DNA of 64,000 bases from positions 1 to 64,000 of the forward strand of contig NZ_FOTW01000023.1 in NCBI RefSeq assembly GCF_900114705.1, read 5' to 3'. Origin of the DNA: Rugamonas rubra (GTDB taxonomy: Bacteria > Pseudomonadota > Gammaproteobacteria > Burkholderiales > Burkholderiaceae_D). The translations under genes were made by a program, and so were the position numbers. Shown piece after piece: positions 3,813 through 50,120 of this stretch (its first letter is position 1; every line of letters starts with the position of its first letter). The notes beneath the pieces were generated by a model, which was not told the DNA's origin, did no database searches, and saw only the letters and a program-made list of their open reading frames with translations.

Positions 3813-4918
<1,106 letters not shown>

Positions 4919-40540: not shown

Positions 40541-40778
40541 CGGCGGGGCGCGCCGGCCGTGAATCGGGCAAACTGTGGCGAATCGGGACGATTTGTTGAC
40601 TTAATGCAAGCAATCGCGCCGCGCCCGCCGGCAGGGGCTACAATCGACTTTGCGTGCCTTGCCGTATTTTTTGGCGGGTTTGCTGCGGATTTGCTACCCA
40701 TTTGCTTGTATACTGCGCGCTCGCGCCTGCCGGCCCGTTTTTGGACCGCGCGCGGCAACAACCCAGGAACCCCAGAAT

Positions 40779-42182
40779 ATGAACAAGCGCCCGACGCTCT
40801 CCTTGAAAACCGCCGCCCCGGCCGCCGCGCCCAAGCTGCGCGCCAGCCACGCGCGGGCGCTCAAACCGGCGCCGCAGAGCGCTTTCAAGACCGGCCTGAA
40901 GGCCGACTCGCTGGCGCTGAGCCTGCTCGGCGCGGCGCAGGCGGTGGCCCAGGTGCGCACCGGCACGGCGCTGCCGCAGGCGCTGGCCACGGTGTTCGCC
41001 AAGCACGACGCGCTGCCGCAGGCGCGCGGCGCGATGCAGGACATCGCCTACCGCTGCATGCGCCAGCTGGGCCAAAGCGAGACCCTGATCGGCCTGCTGG
41101 CGCCGAAGGCGCCCGAGCCGCTGGTGGGCGCGCTGCTGGCCTGCGCGCTGGCGCTGATCACCGCGCCGGACGCCAACGCGCCCTACGAGGAGTTCACCGT
41201 GGTCGACCAGACCGTGACGGCGGCCGACGCCCACCCCGACACGGCGCGCGCCAAGGGCATGGTCAACGCCGTGCTGCGCCGCTTCCTGCGCGAGCGGCGC
41301 GAGCTGCTCGAGACGGCCCTGCAGCAGCCGCTGGCCAAGTGGAACTACCCGCAGTGGTGGATCGACGCGGCGCGCGCCGCCTGGCCGCAGCAGTGGCAGC
41401 AGATCCTCGCCGCCGGCGACGGCGCGCCGCCGCTGACGCTGCGCGTCAACCCGCGCCGCGGCACGGTCGAGGCCTACCTGGCCCGCCTGGCCGAGGCCGG
41501 CATCGAGGCCGACCGCATCGGCCCGTGGGCGGTGCGCCTGGCCAAGCCGGTCGGCGTGGCGCTGATCCCCGGCTTCGCCGACGGCCTGGTCTCGGTGCAG
41601 GACGCCGGCGCCCAACTGGCCGCGCCGCTGCTCGACGTGGCCGACGGCATGCGCGTGCTCGACGCCTGCGCCGCGCCCGGCGGCAAGACCTGCCACATCC
41701 TCGAGCTGGCCGACGCGGCCGTGACGGCGCTGGACGCCGACGCCAAGCGCCTGCAGCGGGTCGGCGAGAACCTCGAGCGGCTCGGCCTGGCCGCCACCCT
41801 GCTGGCGGCCGAGGCGCAGTCGGCCGACTGGTGGGACGGCCAGCCCTTCGACCGCATCCTGGCCGACGTGCCCTGCACCGCCTCGGGCATCGTGCGGCGC
41901 CACCCGGACATCCGCTGGCTGCGCCGCAAGGGCGACGCGCTCCAACTTGCAACACTTTCGGCCAAAATTCTCGACAACCTTTGGCAGATGCTGCGGCCCA
42001 ATGGTAAATTGCTCTTCGTGACATGTTCCTTGTGGCCACAGGAATCGGAAGCGCAGGCCGCCGCCTTCGCGCTGCGCAACGGGGCGACCCGGCTCGACGC
42101 GCCTGGCCAACTGCTCCCCGCCGGTGGGCCGGAACAAGATCACGACGGGCTGTTCTACGCGCTGTTCGAGAAAAATGCGTAA
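40779..42182 (+). CDS. rsmB: 16S rRNA (cytosine-967-C5)-methyltransferase RsmB
   Basis: 467 residues. The NusB-like N-terminal domain (about 35-190) is followed by the SAM domain: VLDACAAPGGKTCHILELAD, PCTASGIVRRHPDIRW with one catalytic Cys and FVTCSLWPQESE with the other. The first 40 residues are an extra basic Ala/Lys-rich stretch. Start 40779 gives the first plausible Met close to the NusB domain. Its last 8 bp overlap the DUF4390 start. Confidence 0.93.
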   Translation: MNKRPTLSLKTAAPAAAPKLRASHARALKPAPQSAFKTGLKADSLALSLLGAAQAVAQVRTGTALPQALATVFAKHDALPQARGAMQDIAYRCMRQLGQSETLIGLLAPKAPEPLVGALLACALALITAPDANAPYEEFTVVDQTVTAADAHPDTARAKGMVNAVLRRFLRERRELLETALQQPLAKWNYPQWWIDAARAAWPQQWQQILAAGDGAPPLTLRVNPRRGTVEAYLARLAEAGIEADRIGPWAVRLAKPVGVALIPGFADGLVSVQDAGAQLAAPLLDVADGMRVLDACAAPGGKTCHILELADAAVTALDADAKRLQRVGENLERLGLAATLLAAEAQSADWWDGQPFDRILADVPCTASGIVRRHPDIRWLRRKGDALQLATLSAKILDNLWQMLRPNGKLLFVTCSLWPQESEAQAAAFALRNGATRLDAPGQLLPAGGPEQDHDGLFYALFEKNA

Positions 42183-42801
42183 GCGTGTTGCCCGTCATTT
42201 CACTACGCAACCTGCGAGCATCGGCCCACACGTGACACGATTTTTCCGACTCCTCGCCTGGCAGCTGCTGATGGTGCTGGCCTGCGCGCTGCCGCGGGCG
42301 GCGCACGCCGCCGAAGGCGTCGAGATCAAGCGCGCCTACGTCGAGGCGGCCGAGGAGGGCTACCGGCTGGGGGCGGTCTACGGCTTCGAGCTCAACCACG
42401 GGCTGGAGGACGCCATCCAGTTCGGCGTGCAGCTCTACTTCACCACCGAGATCGAGTTCACCCGGCCGCGCTGGTACTGGCTCGACGAGAAGGCCATCGT
42501 GGCGCGGCAGACCTCGCGCATCTGGTACAACGTGCTGACGCGGCAGTACCACGTCTCCATCATCGGCAGCGTGCAGCAGAGCTTTTCCACCCTCGAGGAC
42601 GCGCTGTTCCTGATCCGCCGGCCGAGCCGCTGGCTGGTGGCGCCGCGCGGCGCGCTGAAGGTGGGCGAGACCTACAACGTCACCGTGCGCATGGGCATCG
42701 ACCGCAACTATCTGCCCAAGCCGATCCAGGTCAACGCCTTCAACAACAGCGAATGGCGCCTGGCGTCGGACAAGAAGACCTTCCAATATAAGGCGGAGTG
42801 A
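42175..42801 (+). CDS. DUF4390 protein upstream of NtrY
   Basis: 208 residues. Signal-like hydrophobic segment about 22-42 (FFRLLAWQLLMVLACALPRAAHA), so exported to the periplasm. Mature part is beta-rich with FELNHGLEDAIQFGVQLYFTTEIEFTRPRWYWLDEK, the mark of DUF4390. Family function unknown, but it is routinely found between rsmB and ntrY in betaproteobacteria. Start 42175 overlaps rsmB; a GTG at 42232 would leave a more compact signal peptide. Stop is immediately followed by the GTG start of ntrY. Confidence 0.87.
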   Translation: MRKRVARHFTTQPASIGPHVTRFFRLLAWQLLMVLACALPRAAHAAEGVEIKRAYVEAAEEGYRLGAVYGFELNHGLEDAIQFGVQLYFTTEIEFTRPRWYWLDEKAIVARQTSRIWYNVLTRQYHVSIIGSVQQSFSTLEDALFLIRRPSRWLVAPRGALKVGETYNVTVRMGIDRNYLPKPIQVNAFNNSEWRLASDKKTFQYKAE

Positions 42802-45093
42802 GTGAATAAGGCTTTGCGGTATGTGTTCGTCGTGGTCGGCGCCATCGTTAGTATCCTGCTCTTCCTGCTGGCCTCGGCGTCCGACAATTCCGGCCTGTTC
42901 GACCGCTACTATTCCTGGCTGCTGGGGCTGAACGCGGCGGTCGCCGTGGCGCTGCTGGTGCTGGTGTCGGTGTCGCTGTTCCGCCTCTACCTGCGCTTCA
43001 AGAGCGGCAAGTTCGGCTCCAAGCTGATGACCCGGCTGGTGCTGCTGTTCGCCGCCATCGGCGTGTTGCCCGGCCTGGTGATCTTCCTCGTCTCGGTGCA
43101 GTTCGTCTCCCACTCGATCGACTCCTGGTTCAACGTGCACATCGAGGAGGCCCTCGAGTCCGGCCTGAACCTGGGCCGCGCCGGCCTCGACACGGCCCTG
43201 GCCGAGCTCGACGCGACGGCGCGCAAGACCGGCCAGCAGCTGGCCGACCAACCCTTCGGCAGCGAGCCGGCGACCCTGGCGCGCCTGGTCAAGCAGCAGG
43301 CCGGCATGCAGAACGCCATGATCGTCGACGCCGACGGCGGCCTGATCGTCAGCGCCCGGGCGCGCCAGAGCGGCAACCTGAGCGCCGACCTGCCCACCAG
43401 CGCCATGCTGGCGACGGCCAAGAGCGAGGCGGCCTACGGCGCCGCCGAGGGCGGCAACGAGCTGCGCAGCGACATGGTCAACCCGCCCGGCGCGCCCGAG
43501 CTGGTCAACAACCTGCGCCTGCGCGTGCTGCTGGCCATCCCCGACCACGTGCAACCCAACGGCACCCACCTGGCGCCGCGCTACCTGCAGCTGATCCAGC
43601 TGGCGCCGGCCCTGCTGGCCAGCAACGGCGAGACCATCCGCAGCGCCTACAGCGAGTACAAGGAGCGCTTCGTGGCCCGCGTCGGCCTGCGCAAGATGTA
43701 CATCGAGACGCTGACCCTGACCCTGCTGCTGGCCGTGTTCGGCGCCATCGCCAGCGCCTTCCTGATCGCCAGCGACCTGGCCCAGCCGCTGCTGCTGTTG
43801 GCCGAGGGCACCCGCGCGGTGGCCGAGGGCGACCTGTCGCCGCGCCCCATCGTCGCCACCTCGGACGAGCTGGGCACCCTGACGCAGTCCTTCAACACCA
43901 TGACGCGCCAGCTGTCGGACGCGCGCAGCGCCGTCGAGCAGAACCGCGCCGCGCTGCAGAACGCCAAGGCCCACCTGGAGTCGGTGCTGGCGAACATGTC
44001 GGCCGGCGTGATGGTGTTCGACAGCGAGTTCCACGTGGTCAGCTGCAACGACTCGGTCGAGCGCATCCTGCAACTGGCCGGGCCGACCCTGATCGGCCAG
44101 CAGCTCGAGCAGGTCGCCGGCCTGCAGGACTTCGGCGCCGCCGTGGTCGGCGCCTTCTCGGCGCAGAGCGCGCAGTCGGCCGCCGGGCGCGCCGCGCCAA
44201 GGCAGCACTGGCAGCGCCAGATCGAGCTGCCGCGCCGGCCCGGCGCCGTCGAGGAGCACGAACTGACCCTGCTGACGCGCGGCTCGCGCCTGCCGGCCGA
44301 GAGCGGCAGCAGCTACCTGGTGGTGTTCGACGACATCTCCGACGTCATCTCGGCGCAGCGCTCGATCGCCTGGGGCGAGGTGGCGCGCCGGCTGGCGCAC
44401 GAGATCAAGAACCCGCTGACGCCGATCCAGCTGTCGGCCGAACGCATGCAAATGAAGCTCGAGCACAAGCTCGACGGCGCCGACGCCGCCCTGCTCAACA
44501 AGGGCACGGCGACCATCGTCAACCAGGTGGCGGCGATGAAGCGCATGGTCGACGACTTCCGCGACTACGCCAAGACGCCGCCGGCGGTGCTCGGCACGCT
44601 CGACCTGAACGGCCTGGTCGACGAGATCCTGCACCTCTACAGCAATGGCGAGGGCGACGACATCATCCACCCGCAGCTGGCGCCCGGCCTGCCGCTGGTG
44701 ATGGGCGACGAGACCCAGTTGCGCCAGGTGATACACAACCTGCTGCAGAACGCCCAGGACGCCATGGCCGAGCTGCCCGAGGGCGCCGCGCAAGCACGCA
44801 TTGACGTGGTCACCGAAGCCATTCATTATCAGGGCGCGGACGGTGCCACGCGCACCGCCGTGCGCCTGGCCATCGTCGACAACGGCCCCGGCTTCGCGCC
44901 GAAAATCCTGGCGCGGGCGTTCGAACCGTATGTCACCTCGAAGGCGCGCGGCACCGGCCTGGGCCTGGCGATGGTGAAAAAGATTATCGACGAACATGGG
45001 GGCAGGATCGATATCCAGAACCATGTCGATAGAAGTGGCGCGTCAGTGGTGATTTTGCTGTTAAAGTTAGCACCGGCGACGCAAATTACCTAA
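42802..45093 (+). CDS. ntrY: NtrY-type sensor histidine kinase
   Basis: 763 residues. Three to four membrane segments (about 7-25, 40-62, 76-100, 303-325) with a periplasmic loop of about 200 residues, then HAMP (about 320-375), PAS (about 400-510), HisKA with the phospho-His in RRLAHEIKNPLTPIQLS, and HATPase with DNGPGFAPKIL and GTGLGLAMVKKI. Starts with GTG immediately after the DUF4390 stop with GGAG in front. NtrY-NtrX pairs respond to nitrogen, redox or envelope state in different bacteria. Partner ntrX follows 57 bp later. Confidence 0.93.
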   Translation: MNKALRYVFVVVGAIVSILLFLLASASDNSGLFDRYYSWLLGLNAAVAVALLVLVSVSLFRLYLRFKSGKFGSKLMTRLVLLFAAIGVLPGLVIFLVSVQFVSHSIDSWFNVHIEEALESGLNLGRAGLDTALAELDATARKTGQQLADQPFGSEPATLARLVKQQAGMQNAMIVDADGGLIVSARARQSGNLSADLPTSAMLATAKSEAAYGAAEGGNELRSDMVNPPGAPELVNNLRLRVLLAIPDHVQPNGTHLAPRYLQLIQLAPALLASNGETIRSAYSEYKERFVARVGLRKMYIETLTLTLLLAVFGAIASAFLIASDLAQPLLLLAEGTRAVAEGDLSPRPIVATSDELGTLTQSFNTMTRQLSDARSAVEQNRAALQNAKAHLESVLANMSAGVMVFDSEFHVVSCNDSVERILQLAGPTLIGQQLEQVAGLQDFGAAVVGAFSAQSAQSAAGRAAPRQHWQRQIELPRRPGAVEEHELTLLTRGSRLPAESGSSYLVVFDDISDVISAQRSIAWGEVARRLAHEIKNPLTPIQLSAERMQMKLEHKLDGADAALLNKGTATIVNQVAAMKRMVDDFRDYAKTPPAVLGTLDLNGLVDEILHLYSNGEGDDIIHPQLAPGLPLVMGDETQLRQVIHNLLQNAQDAMAELPEGAAQARIDVVTEAIHYQGADGATRTAVRLAIVDNGPGFAPKILARAFEPYVTSKARGTGLGLAMVKKIIDEHGGRIDIQNHVDRSGASVVILLLKLAPATQIT

Positions 45094-45150: not shown

Positions 45151-45858
45151 ATGGCAAACATTCTGGTAGTGGACGATGAAATGGGCATCCGCGAGTTGCT
45201 CTCGGAAATTCTGAGCGACGAGGGGCACGCGATACAACTGGCCGAGAACGCGCAACAAGCGCGCGAGGCGCGAGCGGGCGGCGCGCCCGACCTGGTGCTG
45301 CTCGATATCTGGATGCCGGATACCGACGGCGTCACCCTGCTCAAGGAGTGGCAACGCGACGGCCTGCTGACCATGCCGGTCATCATGATGTCCGGCCACG
45401 CGACGATCGACACGGCCGTCGAGGCCACCCGCATCGGCGCGCTGAACTTCCTCGAGAAGCCGATCGCGCTGCAGAAGCTGCTCAAGGCGGTGCAGCAGGG
45501 CCTGACGCGGGCGCAGGAGACGGTGCGCGCCCCGGCGCTGGCACCGCGTCCGGCGGCCCCGGCACCGGCCGAGGAGGCCAACGGCTTCGGCCAGCCGATC
45601 CTGGTGGCGGCCGGCGCGCGCGGCGGCGCCCAGGTGGTGGCCGGCGGCGACAGCCACAGTTTCAACCTGTCGTTCGACCTGCCGTTGCGCGAGGCGCGCG
45701 ACGCCTTCGAGCGCATGTATTTCGAGCACCACCTGGGACGCGAGGGCGGCAGCATGACCCGCGTGGCCGAGAAGACCGGCCTCGAGCGCACCCACCTGTA
45801 CCGCAAGCTCAAGCAACTCGGCGTCGAGCCGGGCAAGCTGGCGAAAAAGAACGCGTGA
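45151..45858 (+). CDS. ntrX: Short NtrX-type response regulator without AAA+ domain
   Basis: 235 residues. Receiver domain 1-120 with acidic pocket (DDE at 8-10), phospho-Asp52 in LLDIWMPDTDG, and the conserved IMMSGHATIDTAVEAT. A linker of about 60 residues follows, then a Fis-type helix-turn-helix at about 195-232 (MTRVAEKTGLERTHLYRKLKQLG). The central sigma-54-activating AAA+ domain of alphaproteobacterial NtrX is missing, so it cannot activate sigma-54 by ATP hydrolysis. I recall such short NtrX in other betaproteobacteria, so this is probably not a local deletion. Stop overlaps the next start (GTGA). Confidence 0.9.
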   Translation: MANILVVDDEMGIRELLSEILSDEGHAIQLAENAQQAREARAGGAPDLVLLDIWMPDTDGVTLLKEWQRDGLLTMPVIMMSGHATIDTAVEATRIGALNFLEKPIALQKLLKAVQQGLTRAQETVRAPALAPRPAAPAPAEEANGFGQPILVAAGARGGAQVVAGGDSHSFNLSFDLPLREARDAFERMYFEHHLGREGGSMTRVAEKTGLERTHLYRKLKQLGVEPGKLAKKNA

Positions 45859-46310
45859 ACGCGGGCGTGGCGGCCGTCGGCCGCGGCGCCGGTGCGCCGG
45901 CGCCGCGGCGCGCCGTGCCGACCACCCTGGTCCACGGCGGCAACGCCGGCGTGCGCGAGGCGGCCATCGCCGCCTTGCTGCGCCCCGGCGCGGCCGACGC
46001 CGTCATCCTCGAGGGCCTGGCCGACGGCAACGGCGCGCTGGCCGAGCTCGGTCGCGCCCCTGCGGCGCCGCCATCCCCTTCATCTTCCCCGTCTTCCTTC
46101 CCGCATATTGTGCGCATCGCCCCCGGTTGCCTGTGCTGTAGCGGGAATTTGGTTTTGCGCGTAACATTGAATCGTGTGCTGCGCCTCGCTCCCGCCCAGC
46201 TCTACATCAGCCTGGCCGACGCCAGCCACCTCGAACAGCTGCGCCAGTGGCTGTCCGACGCCCCCTACGGCGAGTTGCTTGCTCTACAACCCGACATCGC
46301 GGCCAGATAG
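45855..46310 (+). CDS. Degenerate CobW-like protein with GCLCC motif
   Basis: 151 residues from a GTG that overlaps the ntrX stop. The order of elements resembles the CobW/COG0523 metallochaperone GTPase: a first strand TTLVHGGNAG where the P-loop should be, a second strand AVILEGLADG where Walker B would be, and GCLCC (91-95) followed by VLRVTLNRVLRL, then LYISLADASHLEQL. The P-loop GxxxxGK[ST] is not present, so GTP hydrolysis is unlikely. The CxCC metal motif is intact. Half the usual length. A metal-binding relic or a specialised metal-sensing protein are both possible. Confidence 0.65.
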   Translation: MNAGVAAVGRGAGAPAPRRAVPTTLVHGGNAGVREAAIAALLRPGAADAVILEGLADGNGALAELGRAPAAPPSPSSSPSSFPHIVRIAPGCLCCSGNLVLRVTLNRVLRLAPAQLYISLADASHLEQLRQWLSDAPYGELLALQPDIAAR

Positions 46311-46441
46311 CACGCCGCCTGCCCACAGATCCGCCGGCTCCGGCCGGATAGCGCTCTCGATCTTGAAAATGAGGCCAGCGAGCCCCAAATCGATTCCGAA
46401 CGGCGGAGTGCATGCTCCGTCCCTTGAGAAAAGGATGCACT

Positions 46442-46699
46442 ATGAACCTCATCTACAATAGCGAGCAATACAGCGTGGTCGAGTTCGGCGTCGACCGCGA
46501 GTTGGACGCCCTGCGCTTCGGCGGCTACGAGATCGTCGACAAGGGCGGCAAGCGGGAAATCTTCATCGCCGGGGAGCTGGCGCAAACCTTCCGGCGCGAC
46601 GTCAACGAGTTGATCGCCGGCGAACCGACCATGGCGGAGATCGACGAGTTCCTCGGCAGCTACGACTCGCTGATGAGCCAACCGGTGCTGCTGCACTAG
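46442..46699 (+). CDS. DUF3567 protein (BTH_I0359-like)
   Basis: 85 residues starting MNLIYNSEQYSVVEFGVD, the signature of the DUF3567 family, a small protein of unknown function found across Burkholderiales. No signal peptide or membrane segment; contains a compact alpha/beta core with GGYEIVDKGGKREIFIAG. The start follows AAAAGGATG. A small GGAG/CTCC hairpin sits about 25 bp upstream of the start. Confidence 0.87.
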   Translation: MNLIYNSEQYSVVEFGVDRELDALRFGGYEIVDKGGKREIFIAGELAQTFRRDVNELIAGEPTMAEIDEFLGSYDSLMSQPVLLH

Positions 46700-46802: not shown

Positions 46803-47672
46803 TTATTTCGGTTTGTTTAGCGCATCGGGGATGAAGCCCTCTGCCGACAGGGCGCGAATCACGCCCCGAATCAGAAAATTATTGCTAAACCCTATGGTGT
46901 ACTGACGTGCCCCCTCTCGTATGGGGGCGAGCATCCGGTGTTCAACCAATTTGCGGATTTGATAGGTACGCTGGGTTTCTGTCATCCCGGGCATGGCGTC
47001 CTTCAAATCGCTGGCCTTGGCGATTCCTGCGCGGGCCGTGGTCAACAGCACCCGCTCTTCCAACTGTGTCAGTAGGGCGCGTTCGCGGGCGTAGTGCAGC
47101 GCCGGGGTCAAAATTCGCTCGATGAGGTAGTGCATATCGGTCAGTTGGTCTACCTTGCGCAATTCATCGAGCATGCCGTCAAGAACGTAGATGCACCATG
47201 TTTCGCGACCTTCAGGAGTGCCGTTGTCTGCTCGTCCCAACATGGAGTAGTAACGGTCGCGGTCGTTGCAGAACACCGCCGTCGGGTTGAGTACCCGCCC
47301 GCCCGTCTTGACGTTGAAGCCGTACTTTATGAGCAGAGTATAGGTGAGCAAACGCACCACTCGGCCGTTGCCATTGCCAAACGGATGTATCCACGCAAAA
47401 CGATGGTGAGCCAGTGCGACCTTGATGAGGTCGTATTTCGGCGGGTCGGCACGGTTGATGAAGGTTACCAACTCGCTCATGTATTGAGGAACCTGCACGG
47501 CTTCGGGGGGGAGGTGTTCAGACAGAGAAATTTGCACGGCTCCTTGCCGATACGCCCCCGGGGATGTATCGCCTTCGCGCTGAAGCTCGTGCACTGTCAT
47601 TGCATGGAGTTCACGCACAAAATGTTCCGTAACATCTTGCCCCGGTGTGAAGTTTTCTTCGATGTATGCCAA
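46803..47672 (-). CDS. Fic-family protein, N-terminally short
   Basis: 289 residues from a TTG. The Fic core is intact: [12 protein letters not shown] at 96-107 (catalytic HPFx[D/G]GNGRxxR), flap region [23 protein letters not shown], and a C-terminal winged-helix-like part with [18 protein letters not shown]. Fic proteins AMPylate targets. Relatives normally carry about 90 more N-terminal residues including the inhibitory [S/T]xxxE[G/N] helix; that part is missing, and the frame is closed by a TAG just upstream. A second frame offers ATG at 47725 (MKKFFNYEDLQNIF) that ends at 47597, which could be a frameshift remnant. Base composition is less GC-rich than the surroundings, suggesting acquisition. 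Activity uncertain. Confidence 0.75.
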
Positions 47673-48839: not shown

Positions 48840-50120
48840 ATGATTGATATTTCCAGCAATGATACGAGCCTGAAGAGTTTGCGCGTGCGCGAATTCTATC
48901 TGGGCCGCCAACCGATCCTGGATCGGAACCAAGCGCTGTTCGGCTACGAGTTGCTGTTCCGCAACGCGCCGGTCGGCCCCGCGAATATCAGCAGCGACCT
49001 GAGCGCCACCGCTTCGGTGATCGCCCACGCCGCCCAACTGGGCATGGAAAAGGTGATCGGCGACGCGCTCGGCTTCGTCAACGTCGACGCCGACGTCATC
49101 ATGAGCGACATCTTCAGCTTCCTGCCGCGCGAAAAAGTGGTGCTCGAGGTGGTCGAGACGATGAAGGTCAGCCAGCCGGTGCTCAACCGCATGGCAGAAC
49201 TGGTCGGCCTGGGCTTCTCCTTCGCCCTCGACGACGTCACCCTCGACACCGGCCATGTGCAGGCGCTGTTGCCGCTGGTCGAATACATCAAGATGGACAT
49301 GCGCGACATGCCGCTGTCGACCCTGATGAAGCTGGCGCCCCGCTTCAAGCAGGACAACAAGAAGCTGGTGGCCGAAAAGGTCGAGACGCGCGAGGAGTTC
49401 AAGAACTGCCTGGACCTGGGCTTCGACTATTTCCAGGGCTATTACTTCGCCAAGCCGGTCATCATGAGCGGCAAGAAGCTGTCGCCGTCGCAACTGGCGG
49501 TGATGGAGTTGATGACCCTGGTCACCTCCGAGGCCGACAACCTGGCCGTCGAGCGCGCCATCAAGAAGGACGTCTCGCTGGCGCTCAACCTGCTGCGCCT
49601 GGTCAACACGCCGGCCGTCGGCGTGCGCCAGCGCATCGATTCGCTGAGCCAGGCGGTGACCATCCTCGGCCGCCGCCAACTGCAGCGCTGGCTGCAGATC
49701 ATGCTGTACGCCGAGCCGGCCAAGCGCGGCCACAGCATGACGCCGCTGCTGATGCTGGCCACCACCCGTGGCCGCCTGCTCGAACTGCTGGCCAACAAGC
49801 TGCGCCCGAGCCAGCGCAACGTCGCCGACGTCGCCTTCACGGTCGGCATCATGTCGCTGATGGACACGCTGTTCGGCATTCCGATGGCGGAGATTTTGAC
49901 GCAGATCCCCGTCAACGACGAGGTGGCCGACGCGCTGATGTTCCGTGGCGGCTTCTTCGGCGACCTGCTCAAGCTGGCCGAATGCATCGAACGCATCGAG
50001 GAGCTCGAAGACCACATCGTGCCGACGCTGCGCGACCTGGCCATGTCGACCGACGAGCTGGTCGAGCTGGAGATGGCCGCCTTCGAGTGGAGCGACAACG
50101 TGGTGCGCTACGCGCTGTAG
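48840..50120 (+). CDS. EAL-HDOD signalling protein
   Basis: 426 residues. The N-terminal EAL-like domain (about 15-220) begins FYLGRQPILDRNQALFGYELLFR: the catalytic ExLxR is altered to GYELLFR, and later residues (FVNVDADVIM, ALDDVTLDTG, KMDMRD) are only partly those of active phosphodiesterases. The C-terminal HDOD domain (about 225-420) shows KKDVSLALNLLRLVNTPAVG. This YuxH-type order is usually a non-catalytic c-di-GMP or stress signalling module. A perfect hairpin terminator follows. Cytosolic. Confidence 0.9.
   Translation: MIDISSNDTSLKSLRVREFYLGRQPILDRNQALFGYELLFRNAPVGPANISSDLSATASVIAHAAQLGMEKVIGDALGFVNVDADVIMSDIFSFLPREKVVLEVVETMKVSQPVLNRMAELVGLGFSFALDDVTLDTGHVQALLPLVEYIKMDMRDMPLSTLMKLAPRFKQDNKKLVAEKVETREEFKNCLDLGFDYFQGYYFAKPVIMSGKKLSPSQLAVMELMTLVTSEADNLAVERAIKKDVSLALNLLRLVNTPAVGVRQRIDSLSQAVTILGRRQLQRWLQIMLYAEPAKRGHSMTPLLMLATTRGRLLELLANKLRPSQRNVADVAFTVGIMSLMDTLFGIPMAEILTQIPVNDEVADALMFRGGFFGDLLKLAECIERIEELEDHIVPTLRDLAMSTDELVELEMAAFEWSDNVVRYAL

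Follow-up and report, generated by a model that had tools for sequence, protein, structure and literature searches.

The gene directly following ntrX in the analyzed window (a 64,000-nt stretch of Rugamonas rubra DNA, contig NZ_FOTW01000023.1) codes for a protein that profile comparisons reveal to be a homolog of the P-loop GTPases of the G3E/COG0523 superfamily, which has lost the P-loop, the base-recognition NKxD motif, and the C-terminal half of the domain but kept a metal motif of the form C-x-[C/H]-C. We term it a pseudo-G3E protein, an identity that, judging from these comparisons, is very probable. The loss of nucleotide binding together with the retention of the cysteines fits a protein that does without GTP switching yet binds metal or uses thiols, and the way the gene adjoins and overlaps ntrX is consistent with its product being made alongside NtrX. 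The most likely reading, to which we assign a probability of about 0.4, is that it acts as a nucleotide-independent metal-binding accessory of the NtrYX two-component system.

In the window, the gene is embedded in a run of same-strand genes comprising a homolog of plrP, ntrY, ntrX, and a DUF3567 gene (Table 1). That its GTG start lies within the ntrX stop codon, and that its product contains the sequence GCLCC, had both been claimed in an earlier sequence-only reading of this DNA and are confirmed. These are the only three cysteines of the protein, which has no lysine at all. The window NtrX yielded no match to an AAA+ domain in Pfam or NCBIfam. On the 3' side, 131 nt separate the end of the pseudo-G3E ORF from the ATG of the DUF3567 gene at 46442, which has a second in-frame ATG at 46412; a homolog of the latter gene in Burkholderia thailandensis, BTH_I0359, is described as a gene that cells need in order to be fully sensitive to one CDI system (PMC4364669). 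Farther along lie a Fic/DOC family gene, convergent with the cluster, and a gene for an EAL + HDOD domain protein.

Table 1. Features of the pseudo-G3E gene and its surroundings in the window
Feature	Coordinates	Strand	Details and basis
rsmB-type ORF upstream of the DUF4390 ORF	40650-42182		ORF list
DUF4390 protein, plrP homolog	42124..42801	+	ORF as listed; Pfam PF14334, E 4.7e-45
ntrY sensor kinase	42802..45093	+	Pfam HAMP, PAS, HisKA, HATPase_c; NtrY_N below cut-off
ntrX response regulator, 235 aa	45151..45858	+	receiver + Fis-type HTH; Pfam, NCBIfam
Gene for the 151-aa pseudo-G3E (CobW-like) protein, starting with GTG	45855..46310	+	ORF and family-wide matches
4-nt overlap of GTG start with ntrX stop (GTGA)	45855..45858	+	sequence
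Degenerate P-loop segment, residues 25-38	45927..45968	+	profile aligned without gaps to P-loop G3E proteins
Arg34-Glu35 replacing Lys-Ser/Thr	45954-45959	+	profile alignment; 88/88 orthologs
Invariant Glu53-Gly54	46011..46016	+	aligned to N-E of the G3E NEFG element
GCLCC, residues 91-95; Cys92, Cys94, Cys95, candidate metal site	46125..46139	+	sequence and conservation
Invariant His125, possible further ligand	46227..46229	+	88/88 orthologs and alignments
DUF3567 gene, 85 aa from ATG 46442	46442..46699	+	Pfam PF12091, E 1.7e-32 on 46436-46696
Fic/DOC family gene	46803-47672	-	Pfam PF02661, E 1.3e-18
EAL + HDOD domain protein	48840-50120	+	

Conservation was counted over 88 orthologs from the window's own family (f1), a sample tilted toward close relatives because the searches return the best matches first; L060, which comes from the same genome as L033, and L083-L086, which belong to other families, were dropped from the count. 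The Walker A P-loop (GxxxxGK[ST]) is found in none of these 88 orthologs and in none of 17 further loci, which confirms the loss of the P-loop surmised from the single sequence. The positions that align without a gap to the P-loop Lys and Ser/Thr are occupied by Arg34 and Glu35 in every ortholog. Likewise, Cys92, Cys95, Glu53, Gly54, His125, and Tyr138 are each present in 88/88, and the Arg-Glu pair and CxCC recur in all 17 further loci. His is also seen at position 125 in several P-loop G3E relatives in the profile alignments. The expectation that all three cysteines would be conserved, in contrast to the P-loop, stands for the invariant outer pair, which disposes of the opposite possibility that they vary among orthologs, and fails for the middle one, at which 63 of the 88 have Cys and 25 have His, with no other residue occurring there. 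On a tree built without that column, which is poorly resolved (44 of its 85 inner branches are open), the Cys-to-His replacement amounts to one change; hence, this exchange counts once, and we gave up reading it as recurrent support for a metal ligand. The absence of lysine from the window protein means that neither the P-loop Lys nor NKxD is possible in it, and the alignment ends before the NKxD region; at 151 aa, the protein also lacks the C-terminal CobW domain and the full length of ~300 aa or more. The CxCC metal motif of G3E/COG0523 proteins is present.

The G3E ancestry becomes apparent through the orthologs rather than through the window protein itself. Taken alone, the latter has no CobW match in either Pfam or NCBIfam at E<=1 (TilS and MerB matched only below their respective cut-offs and were put down to chance), and a PF02492 search of its own genome matched six other places, the pseudo-G3E locus not being among them. 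However, 35 of 42 orthologs match PF02492 at E<=1 (best 4e-4), and two ntrYX-linked relatives from other families (L119 and L131) exceed the PF02492 cut-off. A profile of the 42 orthologs matches 72 of 250 genomes of the order, including eight P-loop G3E proteins (L098-L101, L106, L108-L110; E 2e-13 to 2e-10 per genome), with which it aligns ungapped through the P-loop itself, with K->R and T/S->E replacements; the family ends near the point at which the GTPase domain would enter its second half. At the level of the class, 24 of 274 genomes, the own one included, match at E<=1e-5, and the relatives that were read outside the order, 14 of the 24 non-own matches listed, all keep the P-loop. The "CobW-like" label of the sequence-only reading is thus right at the superfamily level only.

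In its first half, the protein follows the G3E/COG0523 (PF02492, e.g., YjiA) order of strand, P-loop position, helix, strand, GCxCC, helix, strand, and helix, and it shares with these proteins the metal-binding Cys motif and the ungapped alignment at the P-loop. Unlike them, it is without the P-loop Lys, the Mg-binding Ser/Thr, NKxD, and the C-terminal domain, its motif may have His in place of the middle Cys, and it is far shorter (151 aa versus open frames of 309-449 aa for matches from beyond the order). AlphaFold gave a confident model (mean pLDDT 86.9, pTM 0.79), and comparison of this model with CobW-type proteins, which had been suggested earlier, gave a divided answer. Escherichia coli YjiA was retrieved by Foldseek at ranks 1, 2, and 8, but at non-significant E-values of 0.08-0.33, there being no Foldseek match at E<=0.001, and in VIA-align, YjiA (Z 7.9, rmsd 3.0, 107 aligned residues) is tied with FtsY, Sua5, and Ffh, with FtsY and Sua5 equaling or exceeding it. 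A profile search of solved structures listed no G3E protein at E<=1, and the matches to FAM96A structures (E about 0.1) were dismissed. The predicted fold on its own would therefore indicate a P-loop-NTPase-like protein at most, and it is the sequence that puts it with G3E. We also considered Glu53 as a counterpart of Glu37 of YjiA, a zinc ligand according to the title of structure 4ixn, and do not claim this, as the alignment via P-loop relatives puts Leu52 at that position, with Glu53 being one residue later. The tree with the ntrYX-linked forms is shallow (128 columns) and long-branched, for which reason we do not claim monophyly of the ntrYX-linked forms.

The gene is matched in all 36 examined genomes of the genus, the own one included, and in 205 of 245 family genomes from 36 of 44 genera in similarity searches; the 205 is a lower bound, since one family genome holds a diverged CPCC relative (L137) that the search missed. 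With most of the GTPase motifs gone and the gene missing in some lineages, one might suspect a decaying relic, a chance ORF, or a frame created by a sequencing error. A pseudogene was also suggested by stops in 17 of the listed family matches; this was rejected, as in 17/17 the stop lies at or before the gene start, the frame beyond it is open through the Arg-Glu pair and the Cys motif, and ntrX is located just upstream. Among 13 hand-chosen close pairs, dN/dS ranges from 0.16 to 0.43, with the window's own pair being the highest (0.43), and so remains under 0.5 throughout. This purifying selection makes "relic", the term used in the sequence-only reading, a misleading label. The orthologs in other genomes are similarly short (118-168 aa, in a survey whose script missed the start of the gene at L004) and share invariant residues across the 88, and an error masking a normal GTPase is excluded by the recurrence of the same P-loop loss across the 88 + 17 loci. 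Given the wide family matches, the dN/dS values, and the open gene frames in all 17 stop-bearing matches, chance, decay, and error are unlikely, and we regard an explanation of the locus in these terms as very improbable indeed.

The coupling to ntrX that had been noticed in the window extends through the family: ntrX lies directly upstream in 86/86 f1 loci checked (54 of the 55 loci L001-L055 by script, L004 found separately, and 31/31 others) and in 17/17 more. The genes overlap or nearly so; an overlap of exactly 4 nt is found in 51 of 86 rows under a first-start-codon rule, one genome being counted twice, and additionally at L004. For L056-L082 and L087-L090, both ntrX and ntrY adjoin the gene in 31/31, and a DUF3567 gene is the usual downstream neighbor (24/31). 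Outside the family but within the order, we inspected 15 stretches picked for short or degenerate frames, and ntrX is near the gene in eight of them, from f3 (L117, L127), f9 (L118, L120, L130), f10 (L119, L124), and f4 (L131). Short or degenerate relatives are accordingly found near ntrYX in four further families, one of them with a P-loop left. In L131 and L119, trkA and trkH intervene between ntrX and the gene, which are ~3 kb apart. The remaining seven stretches (L121, L122, L123, L125, L126, L128, L129) have no ntrX or ntrYX, those of L121, L125, and L129 being cut by contig ends.

Several of these relatives differ from the family in their own ways. Behind ntrX-trkA-trkH, L119 carries a 120-aa G3E-like frame (4016-4375, +) with the P-loop GAPGPGKS and CPCC, possibly an intermediate stage of GTPase loss. 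In f9, P-loop-less G3E-like ORFs of 392 and 334 aa with CICC are found near ntrX (L120:3443-4618, L130:3323-4324 (-)); L130, the only one of the two scanned with Pfam, gave one weak cobW match. Four loci from family f46 (L122, L123, L126, L128) have G3E-like ORFs of 193-210 aa with CACC and altered P-loops (e.g., GATGAEK in L122 and GAASADK in L126), of which L126 scores well above the cobW cut-off; neither ntrYX nor trkAH was matched in the fetched stretches of these four.

We sought ntrX in 12 of the 40 family genomes that gave no match, found it in nine, and read the region downstream of it in the three forward frames. One of these (L137, genome G094) has the diverged CPCC relative mentioned above; in four (L133, L134, L138, L139), ntrX is followed by a DUF3567-like frame, and in two (L132, L136) by an apparent aldo/keto-reductase, as judged by eye from the frames. 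No relative was seen in the three frames at L135, and L140 ends with its contig. Thus, ntrX is present without the gene in several genera, and the gene is therefore not indispensable to NtrYX. NtrX is short in genomes without the gene too (its open frame spans 234-255 aa in 7 of those 9), and beta-proteobacterial NtrX is described as generally lacking the AAA+ domain (PMC13001219). As this holds with the gene or without it, the idea that NtrX lost its AAA+ domain because the pseudo-G3E protein took over its role finds no support.

We propose that the gene has preserved, next to ntrYX, a G3E/COG0523 domain that is GTPase-dead, shortened at its C terminus, and able to function without a nucleotide. 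Zn(II) or a similar metal would be held at Cys92, Cys/His94, and Cys95, with His125 or an acidic residue that is invariant as a possible extra ligand, while Arg34, Glu35, Glu53, and Arg87 may fill or lock the former nucleotide pocket. The protein would be made jointly with NtrX and would act on NtrX, or on the cytosolic portion of NtrY, as a modulator that responds to metal supply, serving as a cytosolic accessory of beta-proteobacterial NtrYX alongside the periplasmic PlrP. Judging from the retained motif, metal binding is probable, whereas direct action on NtrY or NtrX is a more tentative step, with the odds for it falling a little short of even. The tie between NtrYX and iron homeostasis described in Paracoccus (PMC9409073) speaks in favor of this proposal; against it stand the genera with ntrX and no such gene, the intervening trkA-trkH in L131 and L119, and the 7 of 15 stretches without ntrYX.

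The same persistence of ntrX without the gene, and the ~3 kb between the two behind trkAH in L131 and L119, would suit a nucleotide-free metal carrier or buffer, whose target is unrelated to NtrYX and whose position behind ntrX merely ensures co-expression, and COG0523 proteins are indeed put forward as putative metal chaperones (PMC2770081). Such a carrier is nonetheless unlikely in light of the tight ntrX linkage in f1 and its recurrence in four other families. Moreover, GTP is generally regarded as the driver of metal transfer by G3E proteins. The cysteines could alternatively constitute a thiol switch, with a reversible Cys92-Cys95 disulfide reporting the redox state to NtrYX: the two invariant cysteines form a CxxC pair, and the His94 form, CLHC, is reminiscent of the CPHC motif of DsbA. 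The title of one study describes the Brucella NtrYX as a redox sensor. We consider this option improbable, as the motif descends from a metal site and residue 94 alternates only between Cys and His, both possible metal ligands, albeit by a single change. Slightly less probable again is a structural or scaffold domain, in which the metal, if any, merely holds the fold, and a partner (NtrX, NtrY, the DUF3567 protein, or RNA) is bound, with metal or without, by a conserved surface made up of the RVTLNRxLR helix and the Arg-Glu pair. Few stretches are as well conserved as the helix following the Cys motif, and the frequent adjacency of the DUF3567 gene would accord with such a partner; however, several P-loop relatives have a similar helix (LRVxLxRLLR), which is thus not specific to a new role.

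A COG0523 member devoid of a P-loop is not unprecedented, since Rv0106 of Mycobacterium tuberculosis is described as a homolog without the GTPase motifs and with the Cys motif altered to CXSC (PMC2770081, Haas et al. 2009). The family resembles Rv0106, as described there, in the former respect and differs in its invariant outer Cys pair; Rv0106 is further described as Zur-repressed, with no ntr gene named in the main text of that paper (PMC2770081). For additional components of NtrYX, there is a precedent in PlrP (DUF4390), the periplasmic third component of the Bordetella PlrSR/NtrYX system according to genetic evidence from 2026 (PMC13001219). Like the pseudo-G3E gene, plrP is a small accessory gene adjoining ntrYX with a 4-nt overlap, but its product is periplasmic, of another Pfam family, and encoded upstream of ntrY, and the window carries its own DUF4390 gene besides the pseudo-G3E gene. 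The same source describes the order rsmB-plrP-ntrYX for beta-proteobacteria and, from a comparison of 12 species that includes three beta-proteobacteria, states that the genes located 3' of ntrYX "varied"; the word GTPase is absent from its main text (PMC13001219). In contrast to such variation, one gene recurs 3' of ntrX here. Judged by title and abstract, no paper found among the open-licence PMC papers searched links ntrX or ntrY with CobW, and none in that set couples "pseudo-GTPase" with COG0523.

To our knowledge, the signal sensed by NtrYX is unsettled. A conserved protein with a metal motif, encoded immediately behind ntrX in the majority of sampled genomes from one large family, is a directly testable candidate for a further component of the system, and, as far as sequence comparison can tell, it offers a clear case of a GTPase fold that lacks nucleotide binding while its metal site is kept. 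A more far-reaching version of our proposal, which we hold to be unlikely as it stands, is that a metallochaperone GTPase of the G3E type was converted by the beta-proteobacteria into a metal receptor that needs no nucleotide and forms a built-in cytosolic subunit of NtrYX. If true, metal supply would be one signal read by this widespread two-component system, and stages of GTPase loss would survive next to the same cluster in living families, the P-loop being retained in L119 and gone elsewhere.
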